Below, in pieces: positions 5,036 through 42,147 of a stretch of DNA of 64,000 nucleotides. Under the pieces are notes generated by a model. The model was not told the DNA's origin. It saw only the letters and a list, made by a program, of their open reading frames with translations, and did no database searches. Each line of letters opens with the position of its first letter. Position 1 is the first letter of the stretch. The position numbers and the translations under genes are program-made. The stretch comes from a virus, in the IMG/VR virus record IMGVR_UViG_3300017782_000002, positions 1 to 64,000 of that record. One strand, 5' to 3'.

Positions 5036-6682
<1,647 letters not shown>

Positions 6683-9520: not shown

Positions 9521-11431
9521 TTAAAACAAAGATAATTGATTACAATTTACATTAAGAATATTGTTTATCTCTTTTTCAATTGCTTGCAGATAATACTTCT
9601 CATTTATGTTGTAATCTTCCCATTTCCTTGAGTCAACCTTATTAAATACAGTTTGTATCCATTTACCGGCTTCTAACTGTATCTCTCTACCATCATTTTT
9701 GTTACGCTTAATAAGCTTAACACCCTTGTCTGAGATGTAATACCTGTTAATCTTTTGTAGATTCTCTTGGATATATTCACCTTTCTCTAGGCTGTCAGCT
9801 ACTACTTGCCAACCGCTGTTAGTCTTAGATCCTATACAATAGTCTAATATGTTTTTATTAGTCTTAAGATAGTCTTCAGGTAACATGTCATTAACAAAGT
9901 ATTCATAGATTGCTTTAGGTATAACTAATTTAGATTTATTCTTATGCAAAGCAAGATTCTTAAACTCAAACCTACCTTTACATTTAGCTTTATCATCTAG
10001 ATTAATTGCAATGTAATTGTTGACGTCTGCTAGTATAAGCTTCTTGTATTCATCATGCTCAAGATTAAAGTTAGTTATATCTTCCCACTGTTTACATACT
10101 TCCATGTACTTTTCTTTATACTTCTTAGGTATGATTGTCTCTATACCATCAGTATTCTGAAGCAAGGGGATAGCATCCGGTATAGCCTCCATGATCATCT
10201 CATAAAGCATCATAAGTGTGAGTTGACCATTAATTGTTATACGCATGGTAAACTCAGGGTCATATAGAAAAGAATTCTTATCATTAGATAAACCATATGT
10301 ACTATTTAATATAATTTTATATACATAGTTCATAGGATTACTCTTAGGTATTTTCTTTCTTTCCGTAAAGAACCACTCATACAGTGTACAAAACTGTTTA
10401 CTTGGTAAATGCGCAGGAGACCATCCATTCTTAATAGCTAAGTTAGGATAGAAACTAGTAACATCTGAAGACATTATAATATTATCTTCATCAGCTTCAT
10501 ATACTCCAGGCTGATTAGCACCGTGTGCACCACCTAAACCAAAGTGTGTCTTAACACCTTTATAAACAACTGAATGCTTAAAAGCTCCTTTAATATTTTG
10601 TGGGTCCAACTCTACAGTTTTGAATCTAGCTAAAAGATTATTAAACTCCGGTGTAACAAATGCAACACAAGGTAATATAATCCTATCAAGCTTTATAACT
10701 TTCCTAAATGTTCTAAGTTTTTTAAGTTCACGTTTTTCTATGTTCAGTTCTTTACTTAAATAGAAACTAAACAACTCCTTAGATATACGTGGCTCAGAAG
10801 CATTCATAAGATTTATATTATACTCTTTAGTCAGATTCATCCTCAATGCTATAAGATCCTTAGATCTATTATAGATTTCATGAGTTGCGTCTACATCATT
10901 AATACAATACTCAACAATAGTATTTAACTCCTCTTGCGTATTTATATCTGCTTCATGATGTATAGGCATATCTAGAATGTTATCCCAATCCATAGTATAT
11001 TCAATCCACTTAAGACTAGAGCGCTTAGCCATATTGTCCCAGTGATTAAGTTTAAATACATCTATCTGCTTGATTAACATTTGCCATTCAGGAAACTCAG
11101 AAAATTCTCTATTGTTTGATCTTCTAATAGCTTCTTGTGCGTATCCATATATTTCTTCAGTGATACCGTCAGGGTCCATACCTTCCCATTCTTTATAATG
11201 CTTAAGAATATTATGTGTTACCTGTGAATCAAAGCCAATACCATTAAATGAGATGTGGTATTCATTATTTTTTATATTTTCTTTTAAGAACTTGATTAGC
11301 TCTACAGAATCATCTTGAAGTTTATGAATTATAAAAGTCTTATAAGTATTTGTTTTATAATGTTTAAATACACCAACAAAACAGTTCTTAAGAGTCTCAT
11401 AATCCATTACCCAGTGATTCATGACGGCCAT
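9521..11431 (-). CDS. Family-B DNA polymerase with proofreading exonuclease and clamp-binding tail
   Basis: 636 residues. Exonuclease motifs: DYE (D10/E12), N63xxxFD (to D68) and Y175xxxD179. Polymerase motifs: A 'DVTSFYPN' (323-330), B 'KIILNSTYG' (372-380) and C 'QNTDGIE' (425-431), where the classical DTDS is NTDG so only the second aspartate (D428) remains. This variant occurs in compact phage PolB enzymes. The last five residues, QLSLF (632-636), fit the bacterial beta-clamp-binding consensus. It is therefore the likely replicative polymerase, tethered by a sliding clamp that is not encoded in this window. It is shorter than T4-type PolB (about 900) and no protein-priming TPR insertion is evident. 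Confidence 0.93.
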   Translation of the reverse strand: MAVMNHWVMDYETLKNCFVGVFKHYKTNTYKTFIIHKLQDDSVELIKFLKENIKNNEYHISFNGIGFDSQVTHNILKHYKEWEGMDPDGITEEIYGYAQEAIRRSNNREFSEFPEWQMLIKQIDVFKLNHWDNMAKRSSLKWIEYTMDWDNILDMPIHHEADINTQEELNTIVEYCINDVDATHEIYNRSKDLIALRMNLTKEYNINLMNASEPRISKELFSFYLSKELNIEKRELKKLRTFRKVIKLDRIILPCVAFVTPEFNNLLARFKTVELDPQNIKGAFKHSVVYKGVKTHFGLGGAHGANQPGVYEADEDNIIMSSDVTSFYPNLAIKNGWSPAHLPSKQFCTLYEWFFTERKKIPKSNPMNYVYKIILNSTYGLSNDKNSFLYDPEFTMRITINGQLTLMMLYEMIMEAIPDAIPLLQNTDGIETIIPKKYKEKYMEVCKQWEDITNFNLEHDEYKKLILADVNNYIAINLDDKAKCKGRFEFKNLALHKNKSKLVIPKAIYEYFVNDMLPEDYLKTNKNILDYCIGSKTNSGWQVVADSLEKGEYIQENLQKINRYYISDKGVKLIKRNKNDGREIQLEAGKWIQTVFNKVDSRKWEDYNINEKYYLQAIEKEINNILNVNCNQLSLF

Positions 11432-11452: not shown

Positions 11453-12316
11453 TTAAAATATATATCTGATTTTATTCCAAGGGATTTTCTTTTTGTGCAG
11501 TCTTTTAAACTGATCTATGTATTCCCTTTTTAATTCATAATTATACCTTATGTTTTTCCCACCATACTGTGACTGTTTAGTCTCTTGTATATTAGGTGTC
11601 CATAAAGTTAGTTCTGTTTCTGGATGTTTTTCTAAGTTAACAACATGCTTACTAAAATTATGTGTTAAGAATATTACTTCTGCTAACACTTCTTTTTTGT
11701 AACCGTGGTCAACATAATCATTCATCATGTCAAACAAAAGCTCATAGTCTTCTAACCATCCATCATAAACTATAACTGGACTGTAGTTGACATGTACATC
11801 ATAACCAGCATCTATAAATGCACTGATAGCTTTTATTCTATCAATAATTTTAGATGTGTTTGGCTCATGTATATCTGCCATTTTTTGTGGCATTAAACTA
11901 AATCTTATACGTATTTTACCTTCAGGGTCAAACGTGGTAAGATTAGGGTTAACATACTTAGTAGCGAAACTACCCATAGCAACTGGGTGCGTCCTAAAAA
12001 ATTCAAATATTCTTTCCCAGTCATGATGCTTTGCATGCAAACAAAAGTCTTCATTACAACTAATATCATATGTTGTAAATTCAGGATGTGTTTGATTAGG
12101 CTTATCTACTGGTGTAAAATATGCATGATTATTTATTTCTGTAAGTATATCTCCAGTGTTTTTTGCAACACTTAAACCTTTTGGTTTGTGACGTTTCATA
12201 TAACAATATGAACAATCATATAAACAACCGTGACCGAAGCTAGGTGATATAAAATCTGTACTCCTACCTGATGGTCTTATGGTGAAAGTTTTTCTATTTA
12301 CTTTTTTTATTAGCAT
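11453..12316 (-). CDS. Radical SAM enzyme of the spore photoproduct lyase type
   Basis: 287 residues. The radical SAM cluster motif C31xxxC35xxC38 ('GCLYDCSYC') is followed by 'YMKRH', and the rest is a TIM-barrel-like alternation with 'RIRFSLMP' and 'HVNYSPVIVYDGW', as in the SPL-like group (COG1533). Spore photoproduct lyase reverses a UV thymine dimer; many homologues have unknown substrates. A phage copy next to the polymerase suggests UV-lesion repair in sunlit water or modification of nucleic acid. The SPL-specific distal cysteine could not be assigned, so substrate is open. Confidence 0.75.
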   Translation of the reverse strand: MLIKKVNRKTFTIRPSGRSTDFISPSFGHGCLYDCSYCYMKRHKPKGLSVAKNTGDILTEINNHAYFTPVDKPNQTHPEFTTYDISCNEDFCLHAKHHDWERIFEFFRTHPVAMGSFATKYVNPNLTTFDPEGKIRIRFSLMPQKMADIHEPNTSKIIDRIKAISAFIDAGYDVHVNYSPVIVYDGWLEDYELLFDMMNDYVDHGYKKEVLAEVIFLTHNFSKHVVNLEKHPETELTLWTPNIQETKQSQYGGKNIRYNYELKREYIDQFKRLHKKKIPWNKIRYIF

Positions 12317-12333
12317 ATGATAAAATTGGACCC

Positions 12334-12361
12334 AAAAAAAGGGGACAACAAGGCCCCCTTA
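12334..12361 (-). terminator. Rho-independent terminator
   Basis: On the minus strand AAGGGG and CCCCTT pair around a 10-base loop and are followed by a run of T. It lies just after the stop of the 12386-12838 gene and ahead of the radical SAM gene, so it probably attenuates the operon before the radical SAM and polymerase genes. Confidence 0.75.
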
Positions 12362-12849: not shown

Positions 12850-13425
12850 TTATTTCTTAGGCAAAGATACATTATCTTTTGTAATAATCTCAATTAGCTT
12901 GACATTTTTTTCTAATGTTTCTTTTTCTAAGTTTGGTGGATCACATACTTCCCAAACATCTGTTATTGATCCTAGTTTAACGTTTAACAATTCTGCATAA
13001 TCTTCATGATAGAATTCAGGGTACATATAACTTTCTACCGTTTCAGCTACAACACCTGCTTGCCCAAAGAACTTTAATATTTTCTTTTTTTCTCTTTCAT
13101 TTATTTTTGAATATACTCCTGTTAGAACAGCTATCCATGTTTGTGGATAATTTCCAAGATCAAAGATATACAAGTGTGTATTATCTTCAAGTTTTTTATA
13201 GTCAAAAAAGTTTTTATTTTTTAATAATCTTTTCTCTTCAAATTCTAAAAAGCCCTTAGTTTGTTTGTGCTTATACACACAAAACAACTTCATATCCCCT
13301 GTAGGGTTATGGTTTTTCCAAGACATGTATGTTTCTTTAGGTATATATTTTGCACCCTTTGCTATTCCTAGCAAGGGATACAAAAATACTTTACTCTTTT
13401 GAAAATAAGTCTTAAAGAGTTTCAT
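12850..13425 (-). CDS. Hypothetical protein downstream of exonuclease
   Basis: 191 residues, rich in Lys, Tyr and Phe, no recognised domain. It shares one base with the stop region of the exonuclease gene, so the two are probably co-translated. Segments 'HLYIFDLGNYPQTWIAVLTGVY' (in two parts) look like beta strands of a globular protein. Could be an accessory factor of the nuclease by position. Confidence 0.55.
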   Translation of the reverse strand: MKLFKTYFQKSKVFLYPLLGIAKGAKYIPKETYMSWKNHNPTGDMKLFCVYKHKQTKGFLEFEEKRLLKNKNFFDYKKLEDNTHLYIFDLGNYPQTWIAVLTGVYSKINEREKKKILKFFGQAGVVAETVESYMYPEFYHEDYAELLNVKLGSITDVWEVCDPPNLEKETLEKNVKLIEIITKDNVSLPKK

Positions 13426-14423
13426 TATAATGATGGATTGTCTTTAAGAAACATATATGGTAGGTCATATCTATTTTCTGTTACATGATATTCAGCTTCA
13501 TCTAAGACGTCAGTCATAGCAAGGCCCCATTCACTCAAAGTGTTCTGTTTAACTGGGAATGCATATATTTGATTATACTTGTCTATTACTATAAAGTTAA
13601 AACTAATTTTATAATCTTTAGCATCTTCTCCTAGGTTTTTAGTAACTAAAACCATATAAACAGCTGCTTGAAGCCAATATTTATAGAAAGAAACAGTTTC
13701 TGGAAAGTCTGTTATAGTTTTTCCAGTTGTTTTAACATCTATAATTTTAACTTCCTTTTTATCATGATCAATAACATATCTGTCAATATAACCCTTAAGT
13801 CCAAAGCTGTAGTTGCCAAGATCACATTCTAAATATGCCTCATTGAACACTTCTAAGTTGTCCATTTCAAAATCAGTTGGTTCATCTTGGAGTAATGCAA
13901 ATACATCTGCATTTTCCTTTATTAATTCAACTGACTCAGTACATTTAACAAATGTATCTTCATCAACTACGTCTTTATCTGTAGTAGAAGCAACAGCATA
14001 GTAGTCATTGCACTCTACAGTGCGGACCTTAGCTATACGTTTAGCTTCATCTTTCAGTGACTGATATAATCCAACTTCTTTAAGTGAGTTTAAGATAATC
14101 CTATCTTCTACTTTATCTAATGTTATAGCGTCAGTATATAATGTGATATTCTTTATAACTTTCTTTAAAGAGTCAGAAGGAAGTTTAGATGGCATCAGCA
14201 CAAACTGATTGTTAAACTCCTCTGGTTGTAATAATAATAAATGAATTAGTTTACCTGCAATAAGATGCTTGTCTAACCTTTCCTCTTTTTCTTTAAGAAT
14301 ATAATCCTTATAGAATAGAGACGGGGCAAACTGAAGCCTGTTGAGAGAGGAGTAGCTAAATTTAAACTCTCCTTTCTCAATCTTTTGCTTGAAAACCTTT
14401 TCTTTGTTAAGGTCTTTTTTCAT
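13425..14423 (-). CDS. PD-(D/E)XK exonuclease (RecE/DUF3799-like)
   Basis: 332 residues. 'FSYSSLNRLQFAPSLFYKDY' (in two parts), 'AGKLIHLLLLQPEEF' near residue 57, and the catalytic core 'GLKGYIDRYV' plus 'VKIIDVKTTGKT' (about 209-235) give the G-D and DxK residues of the PD-(D/E)XK fold. The pattern matches phage exonucleases of the RecE C-terminal/DUF3799 group, which resect double-stranded ends. The Sak4-type ATPase and probable SSB in the same operon would complete a recombination system. Confidence 0.8.
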   Translation of the reverse strand: MKKDLNKEKVFKQKIEKGEFKFSYSSLNRLQFAPSLFYKDYILKEKEERLDKHLIAGKLIHLLLLQPEEFNNQFVLMPSKLPSDSLKKVIKNITLYTDAITLDKVEDRIILNSLKEVGLYQSLKDEAKRIAKVRTVECNDYYAVASTTDKDVVDEDTFVKCTESVELIKENADVFALLQDEPTDFEMDNLEVFNEAYLECDLGNYSFGLKGYIDRYVIDHDKKEVKIIDVKTTGKTITDFPETVSFYKYWLQAAVYMVLVTKNLGEDAKDYKISFNFIVIDKYNQIYAFPVKQNTLSEWGLAMTDVLDEAEYHVTENRYDLPYMFLKDNPSL

Positions 14424-14432
14424 AATGTAATT

Positions 14433-15647
14433 TTAAAATGGTAAATCACTTTGCATGTCTAATGCAATTTGTGACAAATCTACATCATTTTTAACTTTAG
14501 CCTTAGCTGCAGGCGCTAGTTTTACTGATGCTTTGTCTAATATAAACATATTATTGTCACTGTTAATACCTGTACTTTGATTTATAACGTTATCAAACAT
14601 TATTGTAATCAAATGTTCAGCAGCATTTACAGTTAACGCTCCGTCTTCAGCTAAATACTGCACACATTGCGAGTATCTATTAGAGTGGTAATGATTGTAT
14701 TCTAAACAATACTTTTCAAACTCACGTCTAAGAGATTTAAAAGCAACCTGATTCCACATAGGCGTACCTCTTAAAGTCTCACTAAAGTGAAAGAATAACA
14801 ATGCCAGGTAAGTTCTAGACTTCTGTATATTACAATTAGACATAATAGACATACCTACAGCTTTATCTTCTTTGTTTGTAGACTTAAGTAAAGAACGTAT
14901 TTGCTTGTAATCTTTACCAGAAAGAACATGAGAGTCCTCAGAAGCAAGATTATTCATAAATACGTCACTTACAAGCATTCCTGTTTTTGAGTTCAAGATC
15001 TCTTCAAAAGTATCCATATGCTCTTCTTTAACTGTGTTAAGATAGCTTTCAGATTTGGTTATTTTTCTAAAATCTTCTAACCACGCCTCTGCAGGATTAG
15101 CCTTATCATTAGTGTATCTATAATAATTATGAGGATTAACACTAACGGGAAATTCTACACCGTGTTCTTCTATTAGCTTTGTAAGATTAGCAATTATAAT
15201 ATCTTTAGCGTTATCAACATACAATGCAGAGTCAGATATGTCTATGAAAGAGAGTATTGAACCTAGTGATGATAGTGACATACGCCAATGTTGCTGTACA
15301 GTTTTCTCAATCATTTTCTGACCAATGATACTAAAATCAGCTTTATCCTTATTAAGAACTTTAGCCATACCATATTTTTGTTTACAGTTATCCATCTTAT
15401 CTCTTGATAAGTTTATGTTAGGATACCTATAATATTTTTTATGTATCTTAGAATCAAAATTGCTTTCACCTTGTTTACACAATGTCTGTGTTAGGTCTTG
15501 AAGCTTTTTTTCTACGTCACTGTAAGAGATGTTTTTGTCAAGAAAAATACTTCTTTTAAAAAGAAATACATCTTTATCTATTTTTGCATCAGTCTTAGAA
15601 AAATCTGTGTAATTTACTGTTAAATGTAAGGATTTATTAATTTTCAT
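14433..15647 (-). CDS. Hypothetical 404-aa protein with SSB-like C-terminal tip
   Basis: 404 residues, mostly helical, no recognised domain. It ends 'ALDMQSDLPF', which resembles the conserved C-terminal peptide of bacterial SSB (DDLPF/DDIPF) that recruits host repair and replication enzymes. No OB fold is evident, so it would be a mimic of the tail rather than an SSB. It lies between the exonuclease and a conserved unknown gene. The start overlaps the preceding stop by 11 bp. Confidence 0.6.
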   Translation of the reverse strand: MKINKSLHLTVNYTDFSKTDAKIDKDVFLFKRSIFLDKNISYSDVEKKLQDLTQTLCKQGESNFDSKIHKKYYRYPNINLSRDKMDNCKQKYGMAKVLNKDKADFSIIGQKMIEKTVQQHWRMSLSSLGSILSFIDISDSALYVDNAKDIIIANLTKLIEEHGVEFPVSVNPHNYYRYTNDKANPAEAWLEDFRKITKSESYLNTVKEEHMDTFEEILNSKTGMLVSDVFMNNLASEDSHVLSGKDYKQIRSLLKSTNKEDKAVGMSIMSNCNIQKSRTYLALLFFHFSETLRGTPMWNQVAFKSLRREFEKYCLEYNHYHSNRYSQCVQYLAEDGALTVNAAEHLITIMFDNVINQSTGINSDNNMFILDKASVKLAPAAKAKVKNDVDLSQIALDMQSDLPF

Positions 15648-16671
15648 CTTTTTTATTTTTAAAATATTTTCTATATTCTGGTTTTATTTGAACTTTAAAT
15701 ACATACAGTTCTCTATTATGTATACTTATCTCTGATCTAACTATGGGTTCTAACATCTTAAATGTTTTCTTATCTAGTTCACCAGTTTGTTCAAAGTATA
15801 ATATAGCATCTTGTGCACTCATACGTGAAAGTTTTCTTATCCTAGCTTTCTCTGCCCAATAAGTAATGTCTTTATTTCTAAAGTCATAGTCTATTCTTTG
15901 AGCAGCTTCACCGGCTAACTTCCACATAAGACCTGGTTCATATCTATAATCAATTGTAGGTAATATAGTACCTGCCATTTCTCTATCTTCTCTACTATTT
16001 AACATTGCTGTAAGCTGATCAACTAGCTCAGGCGTCAAACGTTGTTTAGTATTAGAAGAATTCATTACAGTTTCTACATCAACTACTTGCATATCTCCAT
16101 CTTTAATCTTGCTAGCAAGTTCAATAGCTAGGCCGGATATACCATATAAATCATATTCTGCTGATTCATAGTCACAATTATATAATGGACAAGAGTTTTT
16201 TACTTTATCACAATAAATAGTCCAGTTACCTGTTCTATCAAAGTAATCTTCAGCAAAACCTTCTTTAAGTATATACATGTTAGTTTTATGATGTAACGGT
16301 TTTGTAGTTCTAAACGTTGAGTCATGCTCATCTGCGCACAAACCATCATTTACTAATACATCTGCCAACTCATAATCATTAGTGACAACTACCTTATGTT
16401 CTCTAAGAGCTTCTTTAAGTCTATCAGCACTCATACCTACACCAGGCATTATAAAAGCTTTCTTGGCCGTAGATAGATCATCAGTAGTCTCATCTTCTAA
16501 TGTACCTTTTATCTCAGTATAATCAGAATAAGATTCAGTAACTAAAATAGTTTGTATGTTATTACCAGCAGTATCAGTTGGTATACCATACTGTGTAATA
16601 CAATCTACATCATATCCTAAGTCTTCATATTTTTGTAAATCAATGTCTTGAAATATTGTCTTCTTTGCCAT
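15637..16671 (-). CDS. Hypothetical 344-aa early protein
   Basis: 344 residues with no recognised family. It has an alpha/beta N-terminal half ('TILVTESYSDYTEI', 'KAFIMPGVGMSADRL', 'KVVVTNDYELADVLVNDG'), which could be a Rossmann-like fold, and a helical C-terminal half. The two cysteines in 'NSCPLYNCDY' might bind metal. It begins one base after the groES stop, so it is expressed with the chaperone cassette. Confidence 0.6.
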   Translation of the reverse strand: MAKKTIFQDIDLQKYEDLGYDVDCITQYGIPTDTAGNNIQTILVTESYSDYTEIKGTLEDETTDDLSTAKKAFIMPGVGMSADRLKEALREHKVVVTNDYELADVLVNDGLCADEHDSTFRTTKPLHHKTNMYILKEGFAEDYFDRTGNWTIYCDKVKNSCPLYNCDYESAEYDLYGISGLAIELASKIKDGDMQVVDVETVMNSSNTKQRLTPELVDQLTAMLNSREDREMAGTILPTIDYRYEPGLMWKLAGEAAQRIDYDFRNKDITYWAEKARIRKLSRMSAQDAILYFEQTGELDKKTFKMLEPIVRSEISIHNRELYVFKVQIKPEYRKYFKNKKDEN

Positions 16672-16672
16672 G

Positions 16673-16933
16673 TTAAACTATTTTTGCTAGGATATGTGAC
16701 TCTTCTAGTATAATAAGATCATTGTCTTCAAAGTTAATCTTCTGACCCGCATACTCTCCGTATACTACAGTGTCTCCAACTTCAACAACATCACTACTAG
16801 TTTCTATAACTAATCCCATTAATGGTTTCTTTTGATTTGCGTCAGGAATAATAAGTCCTTGGGCTGTCTTTTCTTCAGCCTTTATAGTTGTTATAATAAT
16901 TCTCTTTCCTACAGGAATAATTTGTTTAGCCAT
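16673..16933 (-). CDS. groES: Phage-encoded co-chaperonin GroES (Cpn10)
   Basis: 86 residues from the ATG at 16933, close to the usual 95-97; an in-frame ATG at 16975 exists but would add residues unlike any Cpn10. Visible are 'IIPVGKRIIITTIKAEEKT' (beta-barrel start), 'AQGLIIPDANQKKP' (mobile loop with the hydrophobic LII tripeptide that binds GroEL), 'VEVGDTVVYGEYAG' and 'NDLIILEESHILAKIV'. All core elements are present. It lies directly downstream of the MoxR gene and 10 kb from groEL on the same strand, not adjacent as in bacteria. Confidence 0.93.
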   Translation of the reverse strand: MAKQIIPVGKRIIITTIKAEEKTAQGLIIPDANQKKPLMGLVIETSSDVVEVGDTVVYGEYAGQKINFEDNDLIILEESHILAKIV

Positions 16934-16953
16934 AATTTTTGTGTTGTAAATAC

Positions 16954-16973
16954 GGGGAGACATAAGCCTCCCC
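16954..16973 (-). promoter_or_regulatory. GC-rich hairpin ahead of groES
   Basis: GGGGAG and CTCCCC flank an 8-base loop, in the 54-bp gap between the MoxR and groES genes and 20 bp before the groES ATG. No U-run follows, so it is more likely an mRNA stability, processing or translation-control element than a terminator. Confidence 0.5.
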
Positions 16974-16987
16974 ACATTCAGGTTAAT

Positions 16988-18250
16988 TTATTTTACAGTC
17001 ATCTTAATGATCTGCGGGTTCATCATCATCTTGTTAAATTTCTGCTTGTTACCACTGTAAATAGTTCTTACAATAAGATATTGCAGGTCATCAGCAAAAT
17101 GATTACTAGTACATAACTCAATCAATCTATCAGTAATCTTCTTATTGATTGTGTTTTCTGTAGAATATACTACAGCATAGTTAGCTAATCTTGTAGCTAA
17201 TGCAGATGCAATATCAGCACGATATGCATCATCTTTACCAATTGCTGAAGTTAGCAAGCCTGTTACATATGCATCATTCTCATTAGTTAAAAGATCCTTT
17301 GGTGTAGGTAACTTATCTAACTTGTTGTTAATGAACATAGTAAACATAGAAGAAAATTCATCTCCTACTGAACCTTCACCAATCATTTGGATTAGCGCCA
17401 AGCTATCAGAAAAACTTTCTATACCAGAAATAGCATTAAAGAATGTAGATATAGATCTAGCATTAGTCTCTTGCGTAACTAGTTCAGGATTTAACAATAA
17501 GAAGTTAATACATCTTGTGTCAATGCCTTCTGCTTCTGCCCACTTAGCCCACACATCTATATCAAACTTAAGATTAGCTGTAATATAACGTGTTTTCTGT
17601 GCTGCATCTACAGAATTTACCATGTAGTCACCATTATCCGGGTTAGCTGTTAAGATAATATGCCAGTCTTTAGGTAAAGCCCATGAGATATAAGTCTGAC
17701 GGTCAACTAATTCCATAACTGCCTGAATAAATCTGACATCTGCACGGTTCCAGTCATCTAACAATAGTATACCGCCTGCTTTTTTATCAGCAATCCATTC
17801 TGGTGCACAATAAGACATTCTGTTCTTACCGGTCATTTTCCAACCACTCTTAAGATAATCAGATACAGCTAACTCGTCAACCCACTGACCAACTTTCTTA
17901 GTAACAGGTGCAGTCATTTTAGCTAGATCTTCTGATGCTGCTAATCTAGAGTTATAATTTAGATCATTACTCTTAGAAGGTATTTGTTTCTCTCTATACA
18001 TTTGAAACTGTCTAACAGGAAAACCTACAAGGTCACCTAACTCTTCTATCTGTGCTAAGTTTAACTTAACAAAATCTAATTCATGCTTCTTAGCCATATC
18101 CATAATACTAGTAGTTTTACCTATACCGGATTCACCTACTACTTCAATTGCCACAGGCTTCTTGCCTTGGTCTTGTAAAAATCTGTTGTTTGTAATGATG
18201 TGATTTACAAATCCATCTAGTTCCTCAATGTTTAAATTTACTTGAGCCAT
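16988..18250 (-). CDS. MoxR-type AAA+ ATPase
   Basis: 420 residues. Walker A GESGIGKT (39-46), Walker B 'ILLLDDWNRA' (161-170) and sensor 1 'IILTANPDNGDY' near residue 200 place it in the MoxR/CbbQ/NorQ AAA+ group. These ATPases work with a VWA-domain partner to remodel or activate protein complexes or insert cofactors. The partner gene lies 21 bp upstream (18272-19426). The protein is longer than many MoxR proteins (about 320) owing to its C-terminal part. No D-to-N or K change removes ATP hydrolysis. It is an intact enzyme by sequence; substrate unknown. Confidence 0.85.
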   Translation of the reverse strand: MAQVNLNIEELDGFVNHIITNNRFLQDQGKKPVAIEVVGESGIGKTTSIMDMAKKHELDFVKLNLAQIEELGDLVGFPVRQFQMYREKQIPSKSNDLNYNSRLAASEDLAKMTAPVTKKVGQWVDELAVSDYLKSGWKMTGKNRMSYCAPEWIADKKAGGILLLDDWNRADVRFIQAVMELVDRQTYISWALPKDWHIILTANPDNGDYMVNSVDAAQKTRYITANLKFDIDVWAKWAEAEGIDTRCINFLLLNPELVTQETNARSISTFFNAISGIESFSDSLALIQMIGEGSVGDEFSSMFTMFINNKLDKLPTPKDLLTNENDAYVTGLLTSAIGKDDAYRADIASALATRLANYAVVYSTENTINKKITDRLIELCTSNHFADDLQYLIVRTIYSGNKQKFNKMMMNPQIIKMTVK

Positions 18251-18271
18251 AATTTCCTTTCTTTTTTTTGG

Positions 18272-19426
18272 TTAATTAATTTGAATTTTTTGTCCTGGTA
18301 ACTCTTCATTGATGCTACATCTTGAACTGTGTACCCACAAGGCATTTTTTGGACAGTCTTCTGGTGGATATGCCTCACCATCTGTTAAATATATAAGAGC
18401 AGTATAATCTTTTTCATTATAATGATCAATGACAGGTTGGAAGCTTGTGCCACCCCTGCCTTTTATGTCCCAATCCTTTTTAGGATTGAATATCTCAACT
18501 GAATTAATTTCTGTATCACATTGTACTACAGTAATTTGATGTCCAGTTTTGTGCATATGGCACAACTCATTCATAAATTCTTGTAGTTCACTGTTAGATA
18601 CTGAGCCAGATGTATCTACACCTACACAAATATGATTCTTAAACTTAATCTTAAGGCCAGGATTACCTGTATACCTTTTATTATATTTACGTCTAAGCTT
18701 CTTTGTATAAGAAATAGATGAATTACCAACAAATCTTCTTAAGTATTGTTTCCACGGGAATGCCGGTGGTTCAATAGTCATAAGTCTTCTGATAGTATCA
18801 GCAAGTTCTCCAGGTACATTACCTTGTCTCTTGACTGTTTGCTCAGCAGTTTCTTTAAGTTGGTGCTCTATCTGTTTCTGTACTAGTTTCTTGTCAGCTT
18901 CAGATAACTCATCAAACTCATCCCATGTAGGATGGTCATATGCACTGTTACCATTCATTTGATTAAGTATATTATCTAGTGCGCTACAGTTACCCTGTTG
19001 CTGGGCTTTTTCTAGCTTCTCATAATAATATGTAGTACCTGCTCTTGAGTCTAGATTTAGATCAGCAAACATTTCCATAGTTATACCACCTTCAGGTAGG
19101 CAATCACTTTCAATGTATTGATTAATTTCTAAATCTGCAGCTATATTAAATAGCTTATGACATTTAAACCGGTCTCTCATTATTAAGTGACCAAATGATA
19201 CATGCAGCAGCTCGTGCTTTAGTAATCCTATTTGTTGTTTCTCATTAAGACCCTCAAAGAATTCAGGGTTTACGGCTAACTGTACGTTAATCCCATGCTT
19301 ACTAACACCTGCTGTAGGTATAGTTTTAATATATTTTTTGTTAAGTCCTATAAGAAAGTAACCGTAAAAAGGTTCTTTCAGCATCAACGACTTACTTGCT
19401 TTGGCTAATTGTTCTATTGCTTTCAT
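18272..19426 (-). CDS. DUF2201-type metallopeptidase/VWA-like protein, MoxR partner
   Basis: 384 residues. The N-terminal part has the zinc motif HELLHVSFGH (71-80, HExxHxxxxH), as in the putative metallopeptidase domain of DUF2201. The C-terminal part is VWA-like, with MIDAS motif DTSGS (271-275), 'GGTSFQPVI' near residue 330 supplying the MIDAS Thr and 'YLTDGEAYPPED' near 350. This two-domain protein next to a MoxR ATPase is a known bacterial and phage arrangement. Here both metal sites look intact. Predicted role: VWA partner that presents clients to the MoxR ATPase. Confidence 0.8.
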   Translation of the reverse strand: MKAIEQLAKASKSLMLKEPFYGYFLIGLNKKYIKTIPTAGVSKHGINVQLAVNPEFFEGLNEKQQIGLLKHELLHVSFGHLIMRDRFKCHKLFNIAADLEINQYIESDCLPEGGITMEMFADLNLDSRAGTTYYYEKLEKAQQQGNCSALDNILNQMNGNSAYDHPTWDEFDELSEADKKLVQKQIEHQLKETAEQTVKRQGNVPGELADTIRRLMTIEPPAFPWKQYLRRFVGNSSISYTKKLRRKYNKRYTGNPGLKIKFKNHICVGVDTSGSVSNSELQEFMNELCHMHKTGHQITVVQCDTEINSVEIFNPKKDWDIKGRGGTSFQPVIDHYNEKDYTALIYLTDGEAYPPEDCPKNALWVHSSRCSINEELPGQKIQIN

Positions 19427-19491
19427 ATTGATCTTATTATATGCGTGTTAGGTTGTTCATCACCAGGGTCAGATATTATAACTTCATTCAT
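19423..19491 (-). CDS. Tiny ORF (22 aa) fitting between two genes
   Basis: MNEVIISDPGDEQPNTHIIR-type acidic peptide. Its ATG overlaps the upstream gene's stop as ATGA and its own stop overlaps the downstream metallopeptidase/VWA start as ATGA. Such double coupling is unlikely by chance and suggests that the ORF is translated, either as a peptide or to carry ribosomes to the next start. Confidence 0.5.
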   Translation of the reverse strand: MNEVIISDPGDEQPNTHIIRSI

Positions 19492-19685: not shown

Positions 19686-20074
19686 TTTATTTTTAATTTA
19701 ATTGGTTTAATATTCTTTCCTATTCCTTCATTTATTAATTTCTGGTTCACATAATTAGTAAATTCCTGCTCTATTATATCTCTATACTTAACGTATTCTT
19801 TATTAGCTATTAGATAATCCATAATAACTGACCAAGTTAATCTATTATTAATAGACCACTTTCCTTCTTCTTTTTGCGTTATTAAGAATTTTCTAGTTCT
19901 AATTTCATGGCACTGTTTTTTCAATATTACAGTGAGTAGCTCAGGTGGATCCATTGCAAACCATGTCTTTAGACCAATAAAAAAGTCCTCATCATCAGAG
20001 GACCTTATTAATTTAACTATGTTGTTATATATATCAAGTGTTATCTCTATCTTTTCTTCTATTTCTTTTGTCAT
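19673..20074 (-). CDS. Hypothetical helical protein
   Basis: 133 residues, helical, with 'DPPELLTVILKKQCHEIRTRKF' (in two parts) in the middle and a basic C terminus. No family recognised. It overlaps the RusA gene by 41 bp in another frame. Confidence 0.55.
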   Translation of the reverse strand: MTKEIEEKIEITLDIYNNIVKLIRSSDDEDFFIGLKTWFAMDPPELLTVILKKQCHEIRTRKFLITQKEEGKWSINNRLTWSVIMDYLIANKEYVKYRDIIEQEFTNYVNQKLINEGIGKNIKPIKLKIKWQN

Positions 20075-20432
20075 TTAAATTAATTATTACTCCTGCATTT
20101 TCTTTGTCATACTCATATGGTTCAAACACAGGTATGATATATTCACAATTGTCATCAGGTATCCATTCATGCTTTTGCATGTCATCCTGTACTGTCTGTA
20201 AAGGATTAACGTAATCAAACTTACGTCTGCTATTCCTAATAAACTTAAAGGTTACATACACGGGTAACTCCAATTGATTGAATTCTTTAACAAAGGACTC
20301 TTTCAACTCTATATAAGAAGCATTAGTGGCCTGTCTGTATTTAGTAACTGTCTTACTAGTTATAAAATACTTACCTGTCCATTGCCTGCTGTTCTTAGAG
20401 CTTGGTGTGTTACCCGGTATAAACCATTCCAT
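20034..20432 (-). CDS. rusA: RusA-type Holliday junction resolvase
   Basis: 132 residues, matching the 120 of E. coli RusA. 'FIPGNTPSSKNSRQ' at the N terminus, 'VTFKFIRNSRRKFDYVNPL' (in two parts, residues about 60-77) and 'VQDDMQKHEWIPDDN' (80-94) give the aspartates that bind Mg2+ in RusA (D near 72, DD near 82 and DD near 92). It would cleave branched DNA from replication and recombination before packaging. It lies 4 bp downstream of the primase gene. Confidence 0.85.
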   Translation of the reverse strand: MEWFIPGNTPSSKNSRQWTGKYFITSKTVTKYRQATNASYIELKESFVKEFNQLELPVYVTFKFIRNSRRKFDYVNPLQTVQDDMQKHEWIPDDNCEYIIPVFEPYEYDKENAGVIINLNDKRNRRKDRDNT

Positions 20433-20436
20433 AATA

Positions 20437-21414
20437 TTATATTGAGTCCTTAATTAGTTTAAACAACTTAGGCTGCACTGCACTGAATCCATACTTGGCA
20501 ACTACATCTGCTATATCTTTCTCTGATTTGAGGTAGATACCGTCAATGTTGTATGCTTTTTTGTATTTATCCATAGCAGCGTGTCCTGCGTCATCATTGT
20601 CTAGCAAAGATAACAATTTTTTGTATTTAGACTGTAGGTTCTGTATAATATACGGTTTGATGATAGTGTTCTCTGAATCAGGAGCTATGACATCTAAGCC
20701 AAAGTTAAATGACTTAAGACACATTGCGTCCTTGAGTGATGAACATATCACTAGATAGTCCTTGTCATACTTGAGTTGTTCAAGTCCTTGAAGGTGGCTA
20801 TCTATCTTAATAAATTTGTAACTCTTCTGCTTGGGTTGATATATCTTGTAACATTCACCACTGTCTGTATAGTAACCATACATCAATTGGTTTCTTATCA
20901 CAAGTTTGTCAATACCTTCAGCTGAAGCTTTGACCATATTATAATATTCAATAGGGTGTACGTTATACTCATTAAGCATAGACGTACCTATATTATATTG
21001 TAACCAGTACTTAGCATCATTTGAATTCCATTCTCTTTTAGAAATATAATCTACTGCATATCTAGATACAGGCTTGTACTCCGGATCAGGCTCAAGAAAT
21101 CCCCCGTCCATAATCCATTTGTTGTAATCCTCTGTAATCTTAAACAATGCCTCACTATATGTTAAATCAAATAGATGTTGAACTATATCAATTTTACTAC
21201 CTTGTTTCCCTGTAGAGAAATCCTTAAATTTATATTCCATACAAGAAGGGTCAAGGTATATATACATGCTTGGCGTGCGCTCACTAGGATTGAATATGGA
21301 TTTGATTTGTATATCTTGTCCGGTCAATTGTTCAGGCAGGCTAAGGTAGTATTGAAATACCCAACCACTCTTGATCTCTTCATGTTGACTGATAAAATTC
21401 TTTGTACTAAACAT
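20437..21414 (-). CDS. Toprim DNA primase, phage type
   Basis: 325 residues. The N-terminal part ('KDFSTGKQGSKIDIVQHLFD' region) is CHC2-like but lacks zinc-binding cysteines. The Toprim core has 'YLVICSSLKDAMCLK' (about 213-227), where the usual catalytic EG is SS, and 'SLLDNDDAGHAAMDKY' (about 263-278) with the DxDxxG motif intact. This ([IV]xxSLKD) variant is common in phage primases. It is followed by DnaB and SSB-like genes in the same operon, so it probably primes lagging-strand synthesis. Confidence 0.85.
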   Translation of the reverse strand: MFSTKNFISQHEEIKSGWVFQYYLSLPEQLTGQDIQIKSIFNPSERTPSMYIYLDPSCMEYKFKDFSTGKQGSKIDIVQHLFDLTYSEALFKITEDYNKWIMDGGFLEPDPEYKPVSRYAVDYISKREWNSNDAKYWLQYNIGTSMLNEYNVHPIEYYNMVKASAEGIDKLVIRNQLMYGYYTDSGECYKIYQPKQKSYKFIKIDSHLQGLEQLKYDKDYLVICSSLKDAMCLKSFNFGLDVIAPDSENTIIKPYIIQNLQSKYKKLLSLLDNDDAGHAAMDKYKKAYNIDGIYLKSEKDIADVVAKYGFSAVQPKLFKLIKDSI

Positions 21415-21421
21415 AATAAAT

Positions 21422-21442
21422 GAGGGGGCATGATACCCCCTC
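21422..21442 (-). promoter_or_regulatory. GC-rich hairpin upstream of primase
   Basis: GAGGGGG and CCCCCTC form a 7-bp stem with a 7-base loop between the SSB-like gene stop and the primase start (ATG at 21414). There is no U-run, so it resembles the hairpin before groES and may tune downstream expression or protect an mRNA end. Confidence 0.45.
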
Positions 21443-21449
21443 TATTTAA

Positions 21450-22130
21450 TTATAATTCAAAGTCAGATGCTCCACCATTAGAAGCAACAGGCTCAAATGT
21501 AGCTGCCGCTTTAGGCGCATCATTTGTCTTGTTGATACTTCTCACATGTGTAGCTTTGTCAAACTTAATTAATCTAGTATTATCTACACCTAACTTCTCC
21601 ATTGGTACACCATCTCTAGATAGTTTAGGTAAGTATAGATCATTGTTAACATAACCTTCTTTGTTTTCCCATTCACGTGAACCTAAACATACGTTAAAGA
21701 ATTCACTGTTAGAAAACAAACCATTACATTTAGTAATAAAGTCCTCAATTGTAGCAGCTTCTATAGCATCTAGCTTTTCACGGCCACCAACAACTTCACT
21801 AACAAATATCATAGCTTTTAAGATCTCTTGATCTTTACTTATCTCTCTACCATTATCTAATGTAGCATCTTTGTAAGGAAATGGAGACATTCTTACTCTT
21901 GCAATCTGACCATCATATCTTCCTAATGACTCATTATTTTGGTCACGTAGGAATCCTTCAAAGTCTCCTTTGATAGGCTCACTTTCTACATGTAGATGTA
22001 TCTGATATGCATTAGCATCCCACGGAGTCTTGTCCATAGATATACTATTAATTCTTACTACTGCGTTGCCTGGTCCCATTAAAGGTCTAAGCTTGCCACC
22101 ACCTGTGGCCATGTCTTTTGTACTTAACAT
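21450..22130 (-). CDS. Probable single-stranded DNA-binding protein
   Basis: 226 residues. The first 150 residues contain alternating strands with a 'GDFEGFLRDQNNESLGRYDGQIARV' segment (in two parts) that fits an OB-like beta-barrel, and the tail is low-complexity and ends acidic-hydrophobic ('GGASDFEL'), as in SSBs. It sits between the Sak4-like ATPase and the primase, where many phages keep their SSB. The call rests on context and tail, not on a firm family match. Confidence 0.5.
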   Translation of the reverse strand: MLSTKDMATGGGKLRPLMGPGNAVVRINSISMDKTPWDANAYQIHLHVESEPIKGDFEGFLRDQNNESLGRYDGQIARVRMSPFPYKDATLDNGREISKDQEILKAMIFVSEVVGGREKLDAIEAATIEDFITKCNGLFSNSEFFNVCLGSREWENKEGYVNNDLYLPKLSRDGVPMEKLGVDNTRLIKFDKATHVRSINKTNDAPKAAATFEPVASNGGASDFEL

Positions 22131-22158: not shown

Positions 22159-22839
22159 TTATTGTTCATACTCTGTTATACAGTCTTTCACAAACTGTAA
22201 GTCATTATCTATAAATGGTTCTTTAAACATGTCAATTGGAGACTTACATGTGTTCTCTCCATTATTAACTGTATCAAACCCATACTCTAGTCCATCATCA
22301 GTTTTGTTTACTCTACCAAATAATACTATAGAAAACAAACCTTCTAGTGTTAAAGTGTTGTCAATCATTTTACCTATTGTCTTAGCTTTAACTTTTCTAT
22401 TACCATTACCGTCTACTGAATCTTCTGAGTGAGTCAAGAAAAATATAGTTAAGTCTTCTCTCATATCTTTAGGCATCTTAGCAACCTGTGCTAAGTTAGC
22501 TGCAATCTGAGTAAACTTATCATATCCCTTTTCATGTGCTCTGTCAAAGTATTCAAAACTAGACATGTACTGCCAGTCATCTATGACTAACGTTTTTATA
22601 TGAGGCATCTTATCATTAACATGATTCATAGCCTTAATGATACCTGCAGCTGAACTAGCAGATGTCATGTTACCTTTAGGAGTTTCCTTAGATATACTAG
22701 TATAATTCTTTTTCCATCCCTTAAATGGTAAAGGTTTGTTAGCTATGTTAATTATAAATGTTTCTTTAGGATTTAATTTCCTAATTGATGTAGACTTTCC
22801 AGTCCCTGAGTCAGCTATGACTAATACGCTTTGTGCCAT
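22159..22839 (-). CDS. Sak4-like RecA-fold ATPase (AAA_24)
   Basis: 226 residues with Walker A ADSGTGKST (9-17) and Walker B TLVIDDWQY (83-91), 'IFFLTHSED' near residue 140 (sensor strand) and a compact RecA core. Sak4 proteins are phage single-strand annealing/recombination ATPases that work with an SSB; the probable SSB is the next gene. Length and motifs agree with the family (200-250 aa). Confidence 0.8.
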   Translation of the reverse strand: MAQSVLVIADSGTGKSTSIRKLNPKETFIINIANKPLPFKGWKKNYTSISKETPKGNMTSASSAAGIIKAMNHVNDKMPHIKTLVIDDWQYMSSFEYFDRAHEKGYDKFTQIAANLAQVAKMPKDMREDLTIFFLTHSEDSVDGNGNRKVKAKTIGKMIDNTLTLEGLFSIVLFGRVNKTDDGLEYGFDTVNNGENTCKSPIDMFKEPFIDNDLQFVKDCITEYEQ

Positions 22840-23336: not shown

Positions 23337-24287
23337 TTATTGTCTAACTTGTTGAGGTGGCGTGTCCATCTCCATAATTTCCATACGTTCAAATGCTGCT
23401 TTAAAGAATGACATACGTGCATCACCATTTCTTGCTTTAAGAAAGTGAAGCACAAGAGTCTTGTCATCTTGTATAACATATCTGTCTGGACCATAAAATC
23501 TAATCTTCTGCTTAGCTGGCCTGTTAATACCAATCAATGTGTCAGCATGTTGTAACATTGCATCTGAGCCAAATATATCTGACTCAAGTACATAGTTACC
23601 ATACTTGCCATCAACTGCACGATCAGGATTATCTATGTTCCTATTCAATTGAGACAATGCTATAAACATTACAGGATACTCACGCTTAACTTGTGTAAAG
23701 AATTCACCTAACTCAAACAACATGTCTAATCTATTGTTTTGATATGGTGCTCTCTTTACTAGAATAGTATGGTCTAATGTTATTATAGTCTTTTGTCCTC
23801 TGTGCTCATTCATATAAGCATCAACTTGTTCTCTCATTTGATTGACAGTCATAGGTGTAGATATAATATCAACCGGGTTCTTAACTCTAGTCTTTGCATA
23901 CTGATGACACTTGTCAAAGGTTTGCTGATCTAGTATAGTACCTGCACTACATAGTTCTTTATATGTTTTACCTGTAATTGAACTAAACTCTCTTATTGCT
24001 GATGTTCTACCCACCATCTCAAACTGAAACTCAAGTACACGGTAATCCTCTGCAGGATTATGTATAAATGATTCTCTAATGATCTGATCTTTTATCAATG
24101 TTTTACCTGAACCAGGTCTACCACCTATAACAGTTAATGTATTCCATTCTAAACCGTCAGTGATTGCGTCATTGAACTTAGGCCATGGAGTCTGTATGGA
24201 TTTCTCCTTACCACTCTGCCTATCAAGCATATATTTAAGTGCCTCATTAAAGGCTGTGTATTGTCCGCCCCATGCGTTATCACTCAT
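23337..24287 (-). CDS. DnaB-like replicative helicase, RecA core only
   Basis: 316 residues. Walker A GGRPGSGKT (55-63), a 'RVLEFQFEMVGRTSAIRE' region (H1a-like), 'IITLDHTIL' (Walker B) near residue 160 and 'VMFIALSQLNRN' near 195 identify the DnaB/Gp4 C-terminal helicase family. There is no N-terminal primase-binding domain, so it is shorter than DnaB (471). It overlaps the upstream winged-helix gene by 4 bp. Confidence 0.85.
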   Translation of the reverse strand: MSDNAWGGQYTAFNEALKYMLDRQSGKEKSIQTPWPKFNDAITDGLEWNTLTVIGGRPGSGKTLIKDQIIRESFIHNPAEDYRVLEFQFEMVGRTSAIREFSSITGKTYKELCSAGTILDQQTFDKCHQYAKTRVKNPVDIISTPMTVNQMREQVDAYMNEHRGQKTIITLDHTILVKRAPYQNNRLDMLFELGEFFTQVKREYPVMFIALSQLNRNIDNPDRAVDGKYGNYVLESDIFGSDAMLQHADTLIGINRPAKQKIRFYGPDRYVIQDDKTLVLHFLKARNGDARMSFFKAAFERMEIMEMDTPPQQVRQ

Positions 24288-39446: not shown

Positions 39447-39965
39447 ATGCTAGTAAAGTTATTTGACATATCAAACGGAAAAGTAGTACCTTCAGAACAC
39501 TGTTATACTTTAAATTTTTTAAAAGCAATTATGGATAAATATCCTGACACACATTTAGATGTGTACATGTATTTATTTTATATGACATGTCCTGACCCAG
39601 ATCTAAATCCTTTTTTTAATGTACCAGAAGTAGACAAAGAAGAAATTATATTAGATGAAATTAATATGGAAGAATCTTTAGAGTGTTCTAAAATAAGATA
39701 CGCTCTAGATAAATGTGCTGAACTATATGAAACACCTACTTTTAGAGCATACAAAGGTATTAAGTCTATGATAGATAAATTAGCTAAATACATGGAGAGC
39801 ACACAAATTGAACACGGAAGAGATGGTAATATAAATTCATTAGTAAGTGCAGCTAAAAACTTTGACGCTATTAGACAATCATTTAAAGGAGCATATAAAG
39901 ACATGAAGGAAGAACAATCAACTTCCGTGCGTGGAGGTCAAGGACTAGCTTATGATCAATTATAA
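39447..39965 (+). CDS. Acidic hypothetical protein upstream of terL
   Basis: 172 residues, helical; 'SLECSKIRYALDKCAELY' and 'FDAIRQSFKGAYKDMKEEQ' at the C-terminal end. Overlaps the terL start by 14 bp, as a small terminase subunit often does, but no HTH signature is evident, so the TerS role is only a positional guess. Confidence 0.5.
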   Translation: MLVKLFDISNGKVVPSEHCYTLNFLKAIMDKYPDTHLDVYMYLFYMTCPDPDLNPFFNVPEVDKEEIILDEINMEESLECSKIRYALDKCAELYETPTFRAYKGIKSMIDKLAKYMESTQIEHGRDGNINSLVSAAKNFDAIRQSFKGAYKDMKEEQSTSVRGGQGLAYDQL

Positions 39966-42147
39966 AACAATTCCTACCTGGAATGAAGGAGTTTGGGAAG
40001 AAACTGTATTTGAGCAGATAGATGACTTTAGACAATTTATAGAAGATATATTTAAAGAACCTGGTCTATATGAATTTGATGAAACAGCATATGTATTTAA
40101 TGAAGAAGCAACTAGATTTAATAAACTAGGATTCTATTGTGATAAACCAATGAGATCAAAAGATTTCATGAAGTATTGGGAAGATCAAAAAAATAAATGT
40201 AGAGAAGGTGTAATATACAAAAATAAAGGTAAGACATGGTATCTCACTAGAGATTACTACATGTGGTTAAATTTTTTACCTATTTTTGATAAAGAAGAAA
40301 AAGCATACGGATTTGCTAAAGTAAGAGATGCTCAGTATCATATGGCTCTATATGAAATAATGGCTGAGATAAACTATAAACATGTTGCTATTCTTAAAAA
40401 AAGACAGATAGCATCTTCTTATTTTCATATGGGTAAACTAATCAATATGTATTGGTTTGAAGAAGGTGCTACATTAAAAATTGGAGCAGCCTTAAAAGAT
40501 TATATAAATGATAAAGGTTCATGGAAGTTTTTAGATGAATATAAAACTTTTCTAAATGAACACACTGCTTGGTATAGACCATCTAACCCTGGTAAAGTAT
40601 TATTATGGGAACAAAAGATTGAAGTAACAATAAATACTAGAAAAACACAAAAAGGTCTAAGATCTAAAATACAAGGTGCCTCTTTTGAAAAAAATGCTAC
40701 TGCAGGGGTAGGGGGTCCATGTACGTACTTCTTTCATGAAGAAGCAGGTATTGCCCCTAAAATGGATCAAACATATGAATACTTACGTCCTGCAATGTCT
40801 TCTGGTATGATGACAACAGGTCAATTTATTGCAGCAGGATCTGTTGGTGATTTAGATCATTGTAAACCATTAAAGATGTTTATTCTAAATCCAGAAGCTA
40901 ATGGTATATTAGGTGTAGAAACAAATTTAATGGATGATAAAGGTACAGTTGGTATAGCAGGTTTATTTATACCAGAACAATGGTCTATGCCTCCATACAT
41001 AGATCAGTATGGTAACTCTAATATTGAAGGTGCACTTAAATCTATAAAACGTGAAAGAGAGCAATGGAAAAGAGATTTAGAAGCAGAAGCATTTCAGTTA
41101 AGAGTATCTCAGAAACCTATAGATATAGCAGAAGCTTTTGCATATAGAAAAGAATCAATATTTCCTCAAGGTTTTTTATCTAGACAAATGAAAAGAATTG
41201 AAGATAAAGAATATTCATATGAGTTACTTGCTTTAGAATTTGATGGTAATAAAATATTACCTAAGAGAACTAAAAAATTACCTATTAATGAATTCCCTGT
41301 AAACAAAAAGAGAGAAGATAAAACAGGAGCTTTAGTAGTTTGGGAAAGACCTATTAATGATCCACCTTTTGGTACATACTATGCATCTATTGACCCTGTG
41401 TCAGAAGGTAAAACTACTACAACAGATTCACTTTGTAGTATTTTTGTATATAAAAATCCTATAGAAGTAACAAAAGAAACACCAGAAGGTTTAGAAACAT
41501 TTGTTGAGGGAGATAAAATTGTAGCATCATGGTGTGGTAGATATGATGATATAAATCAAACACATGAACAGTTATTAAAAATTATAGAATGGTACAATGC
41601 TTGGACACTTGTAGAGAATAACATATCTTTGTTTATACAATACATGATTGCCAAAAGAAAACAAAAATATTTAGTACCTAAATCACAAATTGTATTCCTA
41701 AAAGATTTAGGATCTAACAAAACAGTATACCAAGAATATGGTTGGAAAAATACTGGTACTTTATTTAAAAGTCATTTGGTATCTTATGCTATTGAATTCA
41801 TTAGAGAAGTTATAGATGAAGATACAGATGAAGAAGGTAAAGTTTATAAAAGTAAATATGGTGTTGAACGTATCCCTGACAAAATGTTGATAACTGAAAT
41901 GCTACAATACCATGAAGGACTAAACGTGGATAGATTAGTCTCTTTTTCTGCCTTAGTAGCTTTTGCTAAAATGCAACAAGCAAATAGAGGTTATGTTAAA
42001 CGTAAAGAGAGAGATAAGTCACTAGAAATCTTGGATAAGTCAAAGAAATTTGGTAAATTATCTATGAGTCCGTTTAGGAACATTGGTAGGAATAAAAAGA
42101 CCTCTGCAAAAAAAATGAAGAAAAACCCTTTTAAAAATATAAAATAA
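39952..42147 (+). CDS. terL: Terminase large subunit
   Basis: 731 residues. 'WYLTRDYYMWLNFLPI' (about 88-103) is typical of Bacteroidota phage TerL. 'AILKKRQIASSYFHMGKL' near 142-160 is the variant Walker A, and 'CTYFFHEEAGI' near 256 the Walker B with EE. The nuclease domain has 'YYASIDPVSEG' (about 477-487), 'LVENNISLF' near 544 and 'GLNVDRLVSFSALVAF' near the C terminus, giving the three acidic residues of the RNase H-like fold. It cuts and pumps DNA into the head. A 1-bp overlap leads to a tiny ORF. Confidence 0.9.
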   Translation: MINYKTIPTWNEGVWEETVFEQIDDFRQFIEDIFKEPGLYEFDETAYVFNEEATRFNKLGFYCDKPMRSKDFMKYWEDQKNKCREGVIYKNKGKTWYLTRDYYMWLNFLPIFDKEEKAYGFAKVRDAQYHMALYEIMAEINYKHVAILKKRQIASSYFHMGKLINMYWFEEGATLKIGAALKDYINDKGSWKFLDEYKTFLNEHTAWYRPSNPGKVLLWEQKIEVTINTRKTQKGLRSKIQGASFEKNATAGVGGPCTYFFHEEAGIAPKMDQTYEYLRPAMSSGMMTTGQFIAAGSVGDLDHCKPLKMFILNPEANGILGVETNLMDDKGTVGIAGLFIPEQWSMPPYIDQYGNSNIEGALKSIKREREQWKRDLEAEAFQLRVSQKPIDIAEAFAYRKESIFPQGFLSRQMKRIEDKEYSYELLALEFDGNKILPKRTKKLPINEFPVNKKREDKTGALVVWERPINDPPFGTYYASIDPVSEGKTTTTDSLCSIFVYKNPIEVTKETPEGLETFVEGDKIVASWCGRYDDINQTHEQLLKIIEWYNAWTLVENNISLFIQYMIAKRKQKYLVPKSQIVFLKDLGSNKTVYQEYGWKNTGTLFKSHLVSYAIEFIREVIDEDTDEEGKVYKSKYGVERIPDKMLITEMLQYHEGLNVDRLVSFSALVAFAKMQQANRGYVKRKERDKSLEILDKSKKFGKLSMSPFRNIGRNKKTSAKKMKKNPFKNIK

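Follow-up and report, generated by a model that had tools for sequence, protein, structure and literature searches.

The window analysed here, a 64,000-nt stretch of DNA, is part of a 119,816-base (119.8-kb) virus record. The capsid, portal and terminase of the record place it in the crAss-like group (PF23898 8.5e-29; PHROG 11589, 6547, 6681), and the best matches of its terminase large subunit (TerL) are crAss-like genomes. Three adjacent genes on the minus strand encode a VWA protein with a putative metallopeptidase domain, a MoxR-type ATPase and a GroES (Table 1). An earlier, sequence-only reading had described these three open reading frames, and they lie on the strand and at the positions that it gave, with the start of GroES corrected. 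The ATG is a more likely start than a GTG at 16975, because homology begins at the ATG and the first codons read from the GTG fall in a hairpin.

Table 1. Features of the locus, its operon and the terminase region (positions in the window)
Feature	Positions	Strand	Assignment or remark
GroEL (phage)	5036..6655	-	TIGR02348 4.3e-206, over cut-off; PHROG 5725
DNA polymerase, B type (PolB)	9521..11431	-	PHROG 1252 1.9e-137
PD-(D/E)XK exonuclease-like protein	13425..14423	-	PF12705 9.2e-13; PHROG 412 exonuclease VIII 5e-16
orf404	14433..15647	-	Conserved operon member
orf344	15637..16671	-	Directly after MoxR in 106/107 relatives with readable junction
GroES	16673..16932	-	86 aa from ATG at 16932; PF00166; lineage-specific position
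Hairpin GGGGAG...CTCCCC in MoxR-GroES gap	16947..16980	-	34 bases; fold -20.5 kcal/mol, z -4.1
MoxR-type AAA+ ATPase	16988..18250	-	PHROG 1297
VWA (MIDAS) protein with N-terminal HExxHxxxxH zincin-like domain	18272..19426	-	DUF2201 / PHROG 1314
RusA-like resolvase	20034..20432	-	PHROG 1682 1.2e-17
DNA primase (Toprim)	20437..21414	-	PHROG 12622 3.8e-22
Sak4-like annealing protein	22159..22839	-	PHROG 2872 6.4e-64
DnaB-like helicase	23337..24287	-	PF03796 2.6e-20
orf172	39447..39965	+	orf172-TerL junction is the GroES site in relatives
TerL, crAss-like	39952..42147	+	PHROG 6681 9.4e-69

Sequence and model features of the three proteins

The ATPase matches PHROG 1297 ('ATPase') over most of its length (1.2e-33). 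It scored below the cut-off of curated AAA models (Pfam AAA_5, 14.5 bits vs 22) and had no NCBIfam MoxR match; we therefore name it MoxR-type and do not file it as a curated MoxR member. The Walker motifs noticed in the sequence-only reading are present, Walker A as GESGIGKT and Walker B as LLLDDWN, in which the second acid is D, not E. Walker A, the DDWN of Walker B, the sensor-1 Asn and the Arg residues (G39-K45, D165-D166, N203, R221 and R265) are invariant in 21 clade sequences. An AF2 model of moderate confidence (pLDDT 71, pTM 0.53) gave NorQ-NorD as best PDB match (4.5e-6) and also listed CbbQ2; TM-scores were low and clamp loaders scored alike, and the modelled fold relation to NorQ-NorD/CbbQ2 is suggestive.

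The VWA protein exceeded both curated Pfam cut-offs, with 71.6 bits vs 23.2 for DUF2201_N (PF13203, 1.1e-19) and 68.6 bits vs 26.4 for DUF2201 (PF09967, 6.8e-19), which bears out its supposed relation to DUF2201. The two motifs reported for it, HExxHxxxxH and MIDAS, are present as HELLHVSFGH and DTSGS. Neither the zinc motif with its third His (H71, E72, H75, H80) nor the MIDAS residues (D271, S273, S275, T327, D349) vary among relatives or across four unrelated phages, which is well beyond chance. Peptidase activity is predicted from the motif. The best PDB match of the AF2 model (pLDDT 83) is the MDN1-MIDAS domain. Taken with DUF2201, PHROG 1297 and the NorQ-NorD match, this upholds the view of the two proteins as a MoxR-VWA remodelling pair. 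PHROG 1314 is labelled 'HNH endonuclease', a name repeated in many RefSeq phage records (L252, H1-H60). We reject the label because the family carries zincin and MIDAS motifs; no HNH was seen.

GroES matched PF00166 at 8.4e-20 (71.1 bits vs a cut-off of 21.1) and keeps the hydrophobic motif of the mobile loop, GLIIP. It is without the roof hairpin, seen as a gap of ∼ 11 residues against E. coli GroES that is largely common to the aligned phage relatives. In this it presumably resembles T4 gp31 and other phage GroES proteins of that type, as a phage-encoded co-chaperonin with the E. coli roof hairpin absent; unlike them, it comes from a phage that has its own GroEL too. That GroEL, absent from the sequence-only reading, lies on the same strand, 10 kb away, and the two are most likely a normal phage chaperonin. 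Among the first 50 related records GroEL was seen in 8, at varying positions near PolB. Records of at least 108 kb selected by VWA or MoxR carried GroES in 14/14 cases and GroEL in 2/14.

The pair is part of a conserved replication operon

Scanning with the ATPase gave at least 597 confirmed relatives, of which the best 80 loci were read. The VWA gene lies directly before MoxR, inside one operon, in all of them (80/80 loci and contigs). As far as each contig reached, the order in these 80 loci was DnaB-Sak4-primase-RusA-VWA-MoxR-orf344-orf404-exonuclease-PolB. Further members are a DnaA-type HTH protein and a winged-helix protein ahead of DnaB, and genes of unassigned function: one between DnaB and Sak4, one between Sak4 and primase (21450-22130, without a family match) and two between exonuclease and PolB. 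No known family was matched by orf344 in Pfam and PHROG profile searches. A spore photoproduct lyase-like protein at 11453-12316 (PF20903 2.7e-29) varies in position among relatives. PADLOC made no defence assignment and returned one weak DolB match.

Median identity among operon relatives was 77% for MoxR and 69% for VWA, 63% for PolB and 53% for primase; only DnaB (83%) and Sak4 (81%) were higher than the pair. A reverse check on 14 records chosen by GroES found both pair genes in nine and neither in five, and several of these records are fragments. The pair may therefore be less than universal in the clade, or the five records without both genes may themselves be fragments.

The pair in other phages

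Searched against annotated phages, the ATPase found two distant records only, none from the same clade. Relatives of the VWA protein occur in 492 phage records, many of them N4-like. The two genes stand side by side, ATPase first, in Salmonella phage SP-076, Moorella phage MTATph1, cyanophage S-TIM54 and Bacillus phage BpSp, and in all four the zinc-motif and MIDAS residues of the VWA protein and the Walker A core, sensor Asn and two Arg residues of the ATPase are invariant. Active-site invariance thus spans Schitoviridae, Moorella, cyanophage and Bacillus jumbo phages. In S-TIM54 (L253, 7305-9937), Hsp20, MoxR and VWA genes are consecutive and lie among genes for virion structure; here, too, a chaperone gene adjoins the pair. 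The Moorella phage cluster has a third gene; orf344 was considered as its counterpart and rejected, as it is not that gene.

The pair is PHROG 1314/1297, known already as N4 gp25/gp24 and from jumbo phages, so the pair itself is not new. The Schitoviridae proteins belong to the same two families, are adjacent, keep the active-site residues and, as in SP-076, are encoded upstream of exonuclease and DNA polymerase genes. PMC4193335 lists N4 gp24 and gp25 among the core genes and as middle transcripts. The N4-like pairs differ from ours in order, with the ATPase first there and VWA first here, the VWA proteins share about 28-31% identity, and the ATPase of the window carries additional residues ahead of Walker B. 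Iyer et al. (2021) described a MoxR-vWA pair in group 2.2 jumbo phages that likewise joins an AAA+ ATPase to a VWA protein with an N-terminal metallopeptidase (PMC7824862). Virion assembly was proposed for that pair, whereas the one described here sits in a crAss-like replication operon.

The position of GroES is lineage-specific

GroES ends one base before orf344. In relatives, MoxR runs straight into orf344, overlapping or nearly gapless. The gene after MoxR in 118 loci (some of which share a contig) was orf344 in 106 and orf404 in one, and 11 loci end there; in none of the 107 related loci whose junction could be read did GroES follow MoxR. Conversely, none of 103 GroES loci adjoins MoxR: 102 lie directly before TerL and the other stops at a contig edge after orf172. 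For these searches of viral contigs a single protein query found no close relative and an alignment query gave 401 matches, of which the best 80 were read. Nine of a further ten GroES loci (some repeats) precede a terminase gene. The tenth adjoins GroEL. One 179.7-kb record (G056; L231, L238) combines a distant homologue of VWA with a GroES gene immediately beside GroEL. A 245.6-kb record (G030; L099, L105) holds two different terminase-linked GroES copies and perhaps joins two related phages. In the window the orf172-TerL junction is closed and without GroES, and the copy after MoxR is the only GroES in the whole 119.8-kb record.

Since the position is seen in one record only, among searched records that may exclude those nearly identical to the window, an assembly error could be suspected. 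We judge this extremely improbable: standard operon order continues on both sides, a single base parts GroES from orf344, and the junction at the usual TerL site is clean and closed. A chimera would not produce both the displaced GroES and the closed TerL site.

The hairpin in the MoxR-GroES gap has no clear U tail and is possibly a weak terminator or a processing site; it leaves co-transcription of the two genes unsure. No second copy turned up in the window, and none in related loci. Strong G/C hairpins at early-operon gene junctions were seen at 16947-16980, 21422-21442 and 12339-12360.

These data bear on the proposal, made in the sequence-only reading, that GroES, MoxR and VWA act as one folding and activation unit. 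Adjacency on one strand, with the phage GroEL on that strand 10 kb downstream, would suit such a unit. The expected second phage with the same order was not found among the 118 MoxR loci, GroES is terminase-linked elsewhere and a strong hairpin separates it from MoxR, so that we consider the proposal very unlikely. It is just as improbable, in our estimate, that GroES was recruited from the late structural to the early replication strand, on which the phage GroEL is also found, such that the complete chaperonin and MoxR-VWA would be made together early and act sequentially on shared clients of replication or takeover.

Origin of the window GroES

A scan of bacterial genomes with GroES gave three matches only, and Bacteroidota copies for a tree were therefore taken from a separate search. 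In the tree, the window GroES fell outside the terminase-linked clade (support 97/88) and on the phage side of the hosts (94/77). The latter position led us to reject a host GroES as the direct donor. Grouping the window copy with those of the nearest genomes (L087/L243) was rejected with p-AU 3e-6, and a wider group with p-AU 0.002. One other locus (L120) has a host-like GroES with a roof loop at the orf172 site, intermediate between host and phage; its contig ends just after.

These results give somewhat more support to replacement of GroES by an acquired copy than to relocation. A possible, if tentative, alternative is a transfer of the phage's original terminase-linked copy into the MoxR operon followed by rapid divergence, which would be compatible with our explanation of the locus as a whole. 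The empty TerL site, the single GroES in the record and its tree position, apart from the hosts and on the side of the phages, agree with a move. The rejected groupings with the L087/L243 copies speak against it, though with some uncertainty: the window branch is long and the alignment has 100 columns only, which keeps relocation with fast change in play.

Proposed function of the pair

We favour, with moderate confidence, a model in which the known remodelling pair serves the replication module, and GroES/GroEL is a separate phage chaperonin whose GroES is sited there in one lineage only. By analogy with NorQ and CbbQ, the MoxR subunits would form a ring that docks the MIDAS/VWA domain of the partner. 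ATP hydrolysis would then pull or twist the VWA partner and its cargo, as in NorQ-NorD (PMC13036017), and the N-terminal zincin-like domain probably cuts the client or binds metal in it. The client would most likely be a replication, recombination or host-takeover complex and not the virion, given the constant place of the pair in that operon and, in N4-like phages too, its proximity to genes of replication. Operon membership may, however, reflect timing only. GroES would act as a separate chaperonin cap, normally encoded beside the terminase gene, and help to fold phage proteins with host or phage GroEL; this lineage lacks the terminase-linked copy and carries a divergent one after MoxR.

The bacterial NorQ-NorD, CbbQ-CbbO and RavA-ViaA systems also combine a MoxR AAA+ ring with a VWA partner, and the first is the best fold match of our ATPase model. 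Their clients concern metal insertion, Rubisco or respiratory complexes (PMC13036017, PMC4660213, PMC3893208). They differ from the phage pair in that the metallopeptidase domain of the latter is DUF2201_N.

Alternatively, the pair could be a virion assembly factor, with the MoxR ring and the VWA-metallopeptidase remodelling and processing structural proteins. This has been proposed for the group 2.2 jumbo phages and for Acidianus two-tailed virus (PMC7824862), and the place of the pair among structural genes beside Hsp20 in S-TIM54 would fit. In the clade of the window, however, the pair is always in the replication operon, in the window itself it lies on the strand opposite to the structural genes, and N4 gp24/gp25 are middle transcripts (PMC4193335). 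We thus regard an assembly role as rather unlikely.

The locus cautions against reading a shared function into a single gene neighbourhood, since GroES is terminase-linked in nearly all other members examined. The MoxR-VWA-metallopeptidase pair emerges as a component of the replication operon that is under strong constraint across a large uncultured crAss-like clade and better conserved than PolB, and a role in replication for the N4 gp24/gp25 family thereby becomes testable.
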